This document shows, piece by piece, positions 52,582-55,008 of a stretch of 64,000 bases of DNA (positions are counted from its first letter, which is position 1; every line of letters begins with the position of its first letter). This DNA comes from Aureivirga sp. CE67 (GTDB lineage Bacteria > Bacteroidota > Bacteroidia > Flavobacteriales > Flavobacteriaceae), in NCBI RefSeq assembly GCF_015767245.1, contig NZ_JADOTV010000008.1, positions 62,001-126,000 on the forward strand, in the 5' to 3' direction. A program made the translations under genes and the position numbers. Under the pieces are notes generated by a model. The model worked only from the letters and a program-made list of their open reading frames with translations. It had not been told where the DNA came from and ran no database searches.

Positions 52582-52884
52582 TTATTTTTTCAACATCAAA
52601 TACCCTATCCTATTTATTTTTACAAACCTTTCTTCCCAATATATAATTTCAATCTTTTTATCCACATATTTTTTTAAAAGCTTATCTATTTTATAATTAT
52701 CCTCAGAATTTATAGTTACAATCTGATTTCTAGAAGAAAACTCATTTCCTTTTAATAACAACTCAGCATCTTTGTAAAATTACCAATTTGAAATTGTATC
52801 TATTTCTGTTTTTGCTAAAATGGAATTAGATAATGTTATGAATGAGATTAAGAAAAGTAGTTTTAGGTTTGTTTTCGTAGTCAA
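52582..52884 (-). pseudogene. Broken gene for a small exported protein
   Basis: The minus strand from a TTG at 52884 reads a signal-peptide-like start (LKLLFLISFITLSNSILAK), then TEIDTISNW and an in-frame TAA at 52780-52782. After that the same frame stays open for 66 codons (FYKDAELLLKGNEFSSRNQIVTI ... RFVKINRIGYLMLKK) to a stop at 52582. The continuity of signal peptide and downstream reading suggests one gene of ~100 codons with a nonsense mutation. The lack of an ATG supports decay. No family recognised. Confidence 0.5.
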
Positions 52885-53054: not shown

Positions 53055-53079
53055 ATTCCCGTAAAAAAATTACGGTAAT
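53055..53079 (+). promoter_or_regulatory. Palindromic operator candidate upstream of the ATPase/TOPRIM pair
   Basis: Two 10-bp arms with one mismatch (ATTCCCGTAA / TTACGGTAAT) around a 5-A spacer. It ends 13 bp before the -7 element and so covers the -33 region, where a dimeric regulator could block RNA polymerase. Confidence 0.5.
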
Positions 53080-53092
53080 CATTAATTTATTA

Positions 53093-53100
53093 TATATTTG
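53093..53100 (+). promoter_or_regulatory. -7 element for the ATPase/TOPRIM pair
   Basis: TATATTTG, an exact match. It overlaps the TTG at 53098, which argues that translation starts at the GTG at 53116 instead. Confidence 0.55.
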
Positions 53101-53115
53101 AAAAAAACATATATT

Positions 53116-54234
53116 GTGATAACAAAATTTTCAGTTACAAATTTCAAAAGTTTTAATGAAACTTTCACATTAAATCTTGGAGAAATAAATGGATATGAAT
53201 TCAATAAAGAGTGTATTAAAAACAATGTAGTTAATAATGCACTAGTTTATGGTCATAATGGAGTTGGAAAATCAAATTTAGGACTTGCTATATTTGATAT
53301 AATAGTACATTTAACCGAGTATAATTCTAATGAAAATGAATATTCATATTATACAAATGCATTTAACAACTCAGATGTTGCCAGCTTTGAATATGAATTC
53401 AATATTAATTCTAAAAAAATATTATATAAATATCAAAAATCTAGTAATAAAATTATAATTTCAGAAGAGTTTTATATTGACGGGGAAATTCTTGCCAAAA
53501 TTAATCGAAATGAAAGTGATTTAGCTACTTTTAACTTTAAGGGAACTGAAACTCTTAATAATAAAATATCAAATAACAAATTATCGATTTTAAAATATAT
53601 AAAAAATAATTCTATCTTAGATAAAAAAGACACTTATAATGAAACATTTTTGACATTTTTTAATTTCATTGATGGAATGCTATTTTTTAGATCTTTACAA
53701 GATAATATATATCTTGGACTAGAAATTGGTATAAAAGATGTCGTTGAAGATATTATTGAAAATGGAAATTTATCAAATTTCGAAAAATTTTTAACAGAAG
53801 CAGGTATAGATTGTAAATTAAGTATAATTAAAGATTTAGATGGTAAAGATATTTTAGCAATGGACTTTAATGGTAAATCTCTTCCTTTTTTTGCAATAGC
53901 ATCACAAGGTACAAAAGCTTTATCATTATTTTATTTTTGGTTTCAAAGGCTCAATGATACAGGAAAAGTTTCTTTTCTATTTATAGATGAATTTGATGCT
54001 TTTTATCATCATGAATTATCAGCTTTTTTAGTCAAAGAACTTAAAAAGACTAATGTACAATTTATACTAACGACACACAATACTTCTATTTTAACAAATG
54101 ATTTATTGAGGCCTGATTGTTATTTCTTAATGAAGAAAGATTCAATAAATAACCTTTCAAGGTTAACTAGTAAAGAATTAAGAGAAGCACATAATATAGA
54201 AAAAATGTATAAAGCAGGTTCTTTTTATGAATAA
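53116..54234 (+). CDS. AAA family ATPase (ABC/OLD-type), probable defence protein
   Basis: I choose the GTG at 53116 (372 residues, reading MITKFSVTNFKSFNETFTLN); a TTG at 53098 lies inside the promoter. Walker A is YGHNGVGKSN (~residues 45-54); the signature-like ASQGTKALSLFYFW lies near ~275; Walker B is FLFIDEFDAFYHHEL (~295-309), and the following ILTTHNTSIL is the switch-histidine region. This order is that of AAA_15/AAA_21 ATPases of the OLD/RloA/AbiL/AriA kind. The stop overlaps the next ATG by 8 bp. With a TOPRIM-like partner, abortive anti-phage defence is a reasonable inference. Confidence 0.85.
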   Translation: MITKFSVTNFKSFNETFTLNLGEINGYEFNKECIKNNVVNNALVYGHNGVGKSNLGLAIFDIIVHLTEYNSNENEYSYYTNAFNNSDVASFEYEFNINSKKILYKYQKSSNKIIISEEFYIDGEILAKINRNESDLATFNFKGTETLNNKISNNKLSILKYIKNNSILDKKDTYNETFLTFFNFIDGMLFFRSLQDNIYLGLEIGIKDVVEDIIENGNLSNFEKFLTEAGIDCKLSIIKDLDGKDILAMDFNGKSLPFFAIASQGTKALSLFYFWFQRLNDTGKVSFLFIDEFDAFYHHELSAFLVKELKKTNVQFILTTHNTSILTNDLLRPDCYFLMKKDSINNLSRLTSKELREAHNIEKMYKAGSFYE

Positions 54235-54943
54235 TATCTTATTTGTTTTTGAAGGTAAAAAACCTGAAACTTCAATATTTGAAAGTTTTAATAATTGTTT
54301 TCCTAATGAAAAATTTAATATTCATTGTGCTTACTATACAACTATTTATAACTTTTACAATAAAATATCAAAAGATGAAGATTTCGATACGTTTTCAATT
54401 TTAAAATCTCAACCTCAAAATAAAGATATTTTGAATAGTTTCAATAGAAATGATTTTGCTGAAATATATTTATTTTTTGATTATGATGGTCATACATCAT
54501 CTGCTGATGATGAATTACTCATTTCTATATTAAGCTTTTTCAATGAAGAAACAGAACATGGAAAACTTTATATAAGTTATCCAATGGTTGAAGCTTTAAG
54601 ACATTATTCAGATAAATTAGATTTCAAAAATTTGACAGCAAAAATATCTGAATTGACCAATTATAAAGGAAGAGCTAGTACAGAATCTGAAGATAAATAT
54701 AAGCACTTTCATCAATATACAAGCGAAATTTGGTTACATTTAACTGAAGAACATCTGTCTAAATTAAATTATATAATCACAAATAACTATATATTTCCTA
54801 GTAAATATTATGAGCAAATTAAATTATTTGAAAAACAAAAAGAAAAATATATAGAGACTAATGAATCTGTTTCTGTTTTGAGCGCATTTCCTCTATTTAT
54901 TTTTGACTATTTTGGAAAAAATTACAAAGAAAAACTATCATAA
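54227..54943 (+). CDS. TOPRIM-like (RloB/AbiL-type) partner protein
   Basis: A 238-residue cytoplasmic protein. The first strand and helix, NNILFVFEGKKPETSIFESF, carry a glutamate as in TOPRIM motif 1, and EIYLFFDYDGH (residues ~84-94) supplies the D-x-D pair. YPMVEALRHY follows. This is the pattern of RloB-like and OLD-type TOPRIM nucleases. The 8-bp overlap with the ATPase gene indicates coupled expression and probably a complex. Family naming is by motif only; it could be AbiLii-like, or relate to AriB of PARIS. A terminator follows. Confidence 0.65.
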   Translation: MNNILFVFEGKKPETSIFESFNNCFPNEKFNIHCAYYTTIYNFYNKISKDEDFDTFSILKSQPQNKDILNSFNRNDFAEIYLFFDYDGHTSSADDELLISILSFFNEETEHGKLYISYPMVEALRHYSDKLDFKNLTAKISELTNYKGRASTESEDKYKHFHQYTSEIWLHLTEEHLSKLNYIITNNYIFPSKYYEQIKLFEKQKEKYIETNESVSVLSAFPLFIFDYFGKNYKEKLS

Positions 54944-54948
54944 AAAAA

Positions 54949-54983
54949 CAAAACCCAACCAGAAAAAATCTAGTTGGGTTTTG
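54949..54983. terminator. Bidirectional terminator after the ATPase/TOPRIM pair
   Basis: CAAAACCCAAC pairs with GTTGGGTTTTG (54949-54959 with 54973-54983), A-rich upstream. It lies between convergent units. Confidence 0.75.
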
Positions 54984-55008
54984 AAATTATATAAAGTTTA
55001 AATTATCT

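Follow-up and report, generated by a model that had tools for sequence, protein, structure and literature searches.

A conserved palindrome in front of an ATPase and Toprim-motif gene pair in Aureivirga sp. CE67, a member of the candidate defence system PDC-M12

Here, we describe two overlapping genes in a 64,000-nt stretch of Aureivirga sp. CE67 DNA (NZ_JADOTV010000008.1, positions 62,001-126,000; hereafter the window, in whose positions all coordinates are given unless another record is named). Gene A encodes an ABC ATPase and gene B a putative nuclease effector with Toprim motifs, and an operator-like palindrome lies in front of them (Table 1). A sequence-only reading of the window had singled out the pair as an ATPase-plus-Toprim defence candidate, possibly of a new subtype. 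We find that both genes match PDC-M12, a candidate system already catalogued by PADLOC, and that the new element is the palindrome, which is conserved and which the earlier reading had missed. We know of no report of an ATPase-plus-Toprim defence module with its own conserved operator.

Table 1. Features of the gene pair and its flanks, in window positions.
Feature	Position	Strand	Remarks
Palindrome CCGTAAAAAAATTACGG (CCGTA-N7-TACGG), proposed operator over the -35/-33 region	53059-53075		
TATATTTG, putative Bacteroidota-type -7 element	53093-53100	+	17 nt after the palindrome
Gene A, OLD/Rad50-like ABC ATPase (AAA_21), PADLOC PDC-M12A	53116-54234	+	372 amino acids from GTG
Overlap ATGAATAA of A stop and B start	54227-54234	+	8 bp; open reading frame (ORF) list and sequence
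Gene B, Toprim-motif, RloB/AbiLii-like putative nuclease effector, PADLOC PDC-M12B	54227-54943	+	238 amino acids
Candidate residues of gene B: E9, D85, D87, E122, K147	within 54227-54943	+	
Hairpin, T-run on the minus strand; putative terminator of the neighbouring gene, variable segment boundary	54949-54983	-	hairpin scan and same-genus comparison

The two genes and their products

The 8-bp overlap reported earlier is borne out, and it is a probable case of translational coupling. Gene A probably begins at the GTG at 53116 and not at the TTG at 53098 that comes first in the ORF list, because BLAST alignments of A homologues (n = 9) start at residues 5-7 of the listed ORF, residue 7 being the GTG, and because the TTG sits inside TATATTTG. 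The G+C content of the pair is 23.2%, against 29.0% for the whole window, with 6 of 208 segments of 1.8 kb as low or lower.

The motifs first noticed by eye hold up. In A, the Walker A (GHNGVGKSN), signature-like (ASQGTKAL) and Walker B (FLFIDEFD) motifs are all present, and G46, N48, G51, K52, D291 and E292 are invariant in 19/19 aligned A proteins (viral locus L027, where the A gene is split, was excluded). In B, the E ... D-x-D pattern (FEGKKPE, FFDYDGH) has E9 and D85 invariant in 21/21 aligned proteins, that of the window included, and D87 as D in 20 and as E in one (L037); also common to all 21 are G10, E14, F83, F84, F105, G112, L114, Y118, P119, M120, E122, K147 and F221. Since these key residues are conserved across the aligned homologues, the motifs of both proteins are not chance. 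In profile searches, A matches PADLOC PDC-M12A (2.7e-151), Pfam AAA_21 (1.6e-17, above cut-off) and a PHROGs family of unknown function (4.9e-91), and B matches PDC-M12B (2e-84) and another PHROGs family of unknown function (5e-34); NCBIfam gave no match above cut-off for either.

The predicted model of A (predicted local distance difference test, pLDDT, 82) resembles the heads of Rad50, SMC and PtuA. Foldseek pairs it with PtuA of retron Ec83 (6.5e-11), VIA gives Z 15.7-17.9 over 247-287 residues at a root-mean-square deviation of 3.8-5.5 among the 50 matches listed, and a profile of A finds weak matches to SMC, retron ATPases and AriA among PDB sequences.

The Toprim domain is defined by a Glu after strand 1, a D-x-D after strand 3 and an alternating beta-alpha core. 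In the AlphaFold2 model of B (15 sequences; pLDDT 93, predicted template modelling score 0.90), the strands at 3-9, 32-36, 77-85 and 112-118 alternate with helices, E9 ends strand 1 and D85-x-D87 ends strand 3, so that motifs and modelled secondary structure follow the Toprim order. Structure prediction thus agrees with the earlier Toprim assignment in strand order and motifs, and does not add a significant fold-search match. Several results count against the assignment: B clears no Pfam cut-off, its RloB row reaching 12.8 bits where 31.5 are required (E 0.13); among 10 B members, RloB is listed at E <= 10 in six (best E 0.0068) and Toprim in one (E 0.0042); Foldseek searches of PDB and BFVD yield nothing at E <= 0.001, which speaks for the families those databases contain; and in VIA, the Toprim-type rows rank among unrelated folds reaching Z 4.4, with one PARIS complex chain at Z 3.4 (139 residues, root-mean-square deviation 5.2), an entry for T7 primase at Z 2.8 and retron Eco2 at Z 2.5. 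An RloB-like protein heads the BFVD rows (E 0.019, probability 0.91, TM 0.41-0.45). Because the fold searches are insignificant, the assignment rests on motif order and on the profile homology to RloB given below, and on these grounds we consider a Toprim fold in B highly probable. Cas10/Csm1 rows found with the B profile among PDB sequences (best E 0.0048, about 87 profile positions) were taken as chance, and an RloB profile found no useful match there.

Relatives, carriers and neighbours

Judged by sequence, the pair is a member of the catalogued, uncharacterised PDC-M12 and a distant sister of AbiL/RloAB. It shares with PDC-M12 full-length matches to both models, the adjacency of A and B and the position of the ATPase gene first, and we found no distinguishing difference; the PADLOC rows state no function. 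It is not a new subtype, because PADLOC lists it already as a system with a name of its own. In the literature searched, we found no paper naming PDC-M12, PDC-M12A, PDC-M12B or the two E. coli plasmid protein accessions.

Among the systems to which the pair had been likened, AbiL/RloAB comes nearest. There too the ATPase gene precedes the effector gene, and A is homologous to 11 RloA ATPases over its full length (99.8% probability, E 3e-28, 355 columns), including a C-terminal E-K-x-Y tail. B shares the EG..TE and D-x-D motifs and a further one behind them, SYPMVE against SNPCFE; compared with an RloB family profile, whose alignment was built from genomes of the same phylum, it scores 93% probability with a pairwise E of 3e-7 over 101 columns in the first half (a single unrelated control scored 0.1%). 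The RloB proteins of the phylum score as PADLOC AbiLii in 5/5 cases and their upstream ATPases as AbiLi in 2/2. The two groups nonetheless differ. A and the 11 RloA proteins separate in the tree with 100/100 support (the RloA side has long branches), and A matches the AbiLi model at 3.2e-41, far more weakly than PDC-M12A. B has no AbiLii row at E <= 1 in PADLOC and fails the RloB model, the homology being remote and at profile level only. RloB is also far commoner (22/118 genomes of the phylum), and the exact palindrome occurs in 0/11 RloA upstream regions, with one 9/10 match lying far upstream. For this wider family, the NetFlax work describes validated TOPRIM_OLD toxins that are neutralised by AAA partners, one of them in an RloB-homologous node, and an HHPred relation between RloB and OLD_TOPRIM (PMC10440598).

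The defining features of PARIS, Gabija and fused OLD proteins are not found here. PARIS (AriA/AriB) likewise has a separate ABC ATPase and a Toprim-type effector, with prophage and BREX-adjacent carriage, and a chain of its complex gives a weak VIA match to B; however, B has no DUF4435 (Pfam) or AriB (PADLOC) row at E <= 1, and the 'AriA' match of A is to a 304-position model whose alignment is identical to that of Pfam AAA_21. DUF4435 was present in only 1/118 genomes, and that protein matched nothing in plasmids. Gabija and fused OLD combine an ABC ATPase with Toprim chemistry, and GajA also reads a near-palindrome, but in Gabija ATPase and Toprim form one chain followed by a GajB helicase, whereas here Toprim is a separate ORF and the gene after B lies on the opposite strand, with no helicase gene following.

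PDC-M12 is rare in the phylum of Aureivirga. PDC-M12B matches 2/395 genomes of the phylum (our own included) and 2/397 of the family, where one is a weak false match, leaving our own genome only; A is found in 3/395 genomes of the order at E <= 1e-30 (again with our own), and the pair is not in the one same-genus genome examined. In E. coli, blastn with an E. coli plasmid version as the query, a count limited to the DNA similarity that blastn reaches, finds 9/5426 genomes with similar DNA, and all 13 of 13 places are on plasmids. The carriers are ColE1-type replicons (Rop gene) of 4.0-4.4 kb in which the pair makes up 42-46% of the DNA, ColRNAI typing of a related Raoultella plasmid agrees with that type, and on 3.8-kb plasmids, where no ATPase is annotated, the match covers about half of the query. 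NZ_CP101918.1 (L005) is a small E. coli plasmid with the pair. Plasmids of Acinetobacter, Pectobacterium and Raoultella are also carriers. One Acinetobacter plasmid (NZ_CP155548.1, 24,846 bp) contains the pair twice, at a spacing of about 12.4 kb that is near half its length, and is perhaps a plasmid dimer.

Phages carry the pair as well, among them tailed phages and three Vibrio phage records, of which the one examined is filamentous (Tubulavirales). Filamentous Vibrio prophages are described as carrying defence systems in a variable locus (PMC11630473). Of 18 IMG/VR contigs, 17 have A and B adjacent; the contig end truncates A in L020, and L027 has a split A. The remaining contig (L030, 3402-4523) has A and the palindrome with no B detected, so that B may have been lost or replaced, and the ORF upstream of A is one that we take to be terminase-like. 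In L027 (6731-7977), A lies in two reading frames beside an intact-looking B. In L013, the pair sits between a replication-nickase gene and, one gene beyond, a terminase gene, an arrangement that to us recalls the P2 old/tin region, and in L024 one gene separates pair and terminase. We dropped L003 (a 29-residue match missed by the profile), L044 (a weak match to an unrelated protein) and L241-L243 (21-residue matches).

If the pair serves in defence, other defence genes may be expected nearby, as the earlier reading had supposed. Among the genes tested, a PADLOC-matching neighbour was present at 4/6 other cellular loci, a figure from a small sample without a background control. In Fusobacterium vincentii, the pair lies within a BREX operon in the order BrxC-[pair]-Schlafen-PglX, with a Schlafen/AlbA_2 protein also between (NZ_CP084075.1, 2978-14085; the record is labelled a plasmid yet is 2.1 Mb long). 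A PDC-S01 gene is immediately upstream of the pair in a 10.8-kb contig of a metagenome-assembled genome (L002), a type IIG restriction enzyme lies about 5.5 kb away in L265 and a PDC-S37-like helicase-nuclease about 5 kb away in L264, and both of the latter have IS91-type transposases around and between. The other two loci tell against the association: among the five genes tested at each, none matches PADLOC at L001, and the sole match at L106 is of CARF/LolE type (2e-14). A survey of BREX describes modules that combine OLD-ABC with Toprim as backup effectors within BREX loci (PMC12839542), which supports a defence reading of our pair by analogy.

In the window itself, the same-genus relative matches the next operon collinearly at 95% identity up to 54951, the junction where the two diverge; its blocks corresponding to 45.6-50.9 kb and 54.9-63.2 kb are in a different order. 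Beyond the junction, the ORFs of the relative, named by recognition, look like a type I restriction operon. The hairpin behind B had been taken for the pair's own terminator. As its T-run is on the minus strand, and as the relative shares the sequence from 54951 onwards together with the neighbour, it belongs to that gene and at best serves both directions; the gene, on the opposite strand, is one that we take to encode an RND pump. The decayed gene noted next to the pair agrees with a degraded minus-strand frame at 52585-52880, which has a signal-peptide-like start and an internal stop.

The palindrome in front of gene A

A comparison of inverted repeats upstream of A across loci brought out a 17-bp palindrome, CCGTAAAAAAATTACGG, which has no other match to CCGTA-N7-TACGG in the window and none in 100 shuffles. 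Of 21 distinct loci, 16 have an exact copy, 18 keep at least 9/10 bases and 20 at least 8/10. An exact copy is also present in each of two loci found after the motif had been defined, at -56 in G869 and at -60 in G876, which brings the totals in 23 distinct loci from three phyla to 18, 20 and 22; a first-order Markov null (200-nt stretches, 6300 trials) gives 0 exact, 0.0011 at 9/10 and 0.038 at 8/10 per locus. These counts omit near-copies (L017, L018, L020, L022, L023, L025, L026 and L028), of which the three checked (L017, L022 and L028) carry the palindrome too, and some of the counted loci are related (the plasmids L005/L222 and the close relatives L019/L024). Exact sites start 51-104 nt before the chosen start codon of A, apart from a second copy at -137 in L037, and the palindrome stands upstream of A in Bacteroidota, Fusobacterium, Gammaproteobacteria and phages.

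Among the 22 loci with the palindrome, its centre is an A-run in 9 and a T-run in 11, the remaining 2 being mixed. Because A-run and T-run are one site in two orientations, we read the palindrome as a double-stranded DNA site. Over 15 flank positions there is no overall excess of complementarity, with positions 2, 7 and 11 somewhat higher. An RNA hairpin is disfavoured on both counts, the centre occurring in both orientations and the flanks not being paired beyond expectation overall.

The pattern alone is not diagnostic, because its frequency in whole genomes equals that of a control: our own 4.8-Mb genome has one palindrome and one backwards-read control, and a looser CCGTA-W7-TACGG is present in 24/395 genomes of the phylum against 23 for the control. 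A further point that weakens the link to A is the Capnocytophaga locus L001, which lacks the palindrome though its A is 56% identical. What is conserved is the place of the palindrome, not its genome-wide number. Viral scans for the exact site gave 69 + 12 loci, with A beside the site in 9/81; of the other 72 sites, 44 are inside an ORF of a simple ORF caller. Eight site-proximal genes (five viral, three genomic) encode a capsid protein, amidases, ParB-like, DUF4097, malic enzyme and ApbE proteins and gave no second consistent target.

Two of these loci have features of their own. In L001, a different inverted repeat of 13 bp (AAAGGGACTGTCT...) lies 56 nt upstream of 8887, a similar distance, and may either terminate the gene before it or be an operator of another kind. 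In L207 (G306:C5:57010-57026), in a phylum genome without a PDC-M12B match, an exact site CCGTAATTTTTTTACGG lies 81 nt before the DUF4097 gene.

The pair had also been credited with its own promoter. A scan for sigma-70-type promoters found 28 sites against a shuffle mean of 27.5, so that the promoter rests on TATATTTG, which fits the Bacteroidota -7 consensus TAnnTTTG, and on the palindrome. A -10-like hexamer or TAnnTTTG follows the palindrome by 14-18 nt in 11/19 loci, where shuffles average 5.2 and reach 11 in 9/2000; this spacing was set after the sequences had been viewed. Such elements would place the palindrome over the -35/-33 region under two promoter types.

Possible role of the pair and of its palindrome

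In light of the PDC-M12 match, the model of B, the RloB/AbiLii homology, the mobile carriage and the defence neighbours, a role in defence is probable. As to mechanism, we somewhat favour an ATPase-restrained Toprim module that acts by abortive infection and represses its own promoter. A would hold B inactive in a complex, as suggested by AbiL, PARIS and the AAA-neutralised Toprim toxins, and would sense infection, the likeliest cue being a counter-defence protein of the phage, as with the anti-restriction protein Ocr in PARIS. Once triggered, B would act as a metal-dependent Toprim nuclease, cut nucleic acid and halt growth. Its target is an evenly balanced question in which an RNA such as tRNA has a slight preference over DNA, because AriB, a Toprim released by AriA, cleaves tRNA-Lys (PMC12409363), GajA being the precedent for DNA.

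The palindrome would be bound over the -35 region by A or by an A-B complex, which would repress the operon and keep expression low after transfer into a new host. We give this binding slightly better than an even chance. For a module this rare, the retention of one site across phyla, hosts and replicons is explained most simply by binding of the module's own product. The case for self-repression is indirect, because neither A nor B has a recognised DNA-binding domain, and this weighs against it. A more speculative version, which we think doubtful, is that A-B reads the palindrome and that DNA binding doubles as sensing, so that stripping the complex from its site, for example by a phage DNA-mimic or DNA-end protein, would derepress the operon and free the B nuclease.

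Another option is that A-B is a sequence-specific DNA nuclease like Gabija or OLD, with the palindrome as its recognition site, either protected or serving as a promoter switch. The ATPase-Toprim enzyme GajA recognises a near-palindromic 15-bp DNA sequence (PMC8136825), and the palindrome of PDC-M12 is conserved, double-stranded and located at the module. This is nevertheless unlikely, as AriB, the best-studied effector with Toprim in a separate gene, cuts tRNA, as the spacing of 14-18 nt to a downstream -10-like element fits an operator, and as 72/81 viral loci have the exact site with no adjacent A.

The same autoregulatory-type palindrome would also suit an addiction module, in which A as antitoxin and B as toxin stabilise plasmids and prophages with no direct anti-phage role. 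Consistent with this, the pair is the main cargo of the 4.0-4.4-kb plasmids and is carried by phages, and RloB-type Toprim toxins are neutralised by AAA partners (PMC10440598). Multicopy ColE1-like plasmids, however, need addiction less, and the pair is also found within a BREX operon and among the accessory genes of phages. As an exclusive account we consider addiction improbable, and it is compatible with defence.

Alternatively, the palindrome may have nothing to do with binding by A or B, being the site of a host regulator or a hairpin in the leader RNA. The want of a recognised DNA-binding domain in both proteins fits such a view, as does the hairpin-like geometry of a 5-bp stem and a 7-nt loop. 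Occurrence of the site in Bacteroidota, Fusobacterium, Gammaproteobacteria and phages alike is hard to reconcile with a host regulator, and the hairpin is opposed by a central run in both orientations, by flanks with no general excess of pairing and by the putative -10/-7 elements downstream at 11/19 loci, which would leave the site there untranscribed; this explanation, too, has little likelihood. A housekeeping role in DNA repair, with a RecF/Rad50-like ATPase and a RecR-like Toprim, is very improbable, for although A matches SMC/Rad50 heads and Toprim proteins cooperate with RecF-like ATPases in repair, the pair is patchy (2/395 phylum genomes, and not the one same-genus genome examined), mobile, and at blastn-level similarity plasmid-borne only among 5426 E. 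coli genomes.

Thus, a catalogued candidate gains a family placement, candidate catalytic residues and a conserved promoter palindrome, along with natural versions of the pair on 4-kb E. coli plasmids. The palindrome is the best experimental handle on the pair and bears on how ATPase-Toprim modules, which are probably toxic, stay silent after transfer. If A-B does read it, a Rad50-like ATPase without a helix-turn-helix would be a sequence-specific repressor.

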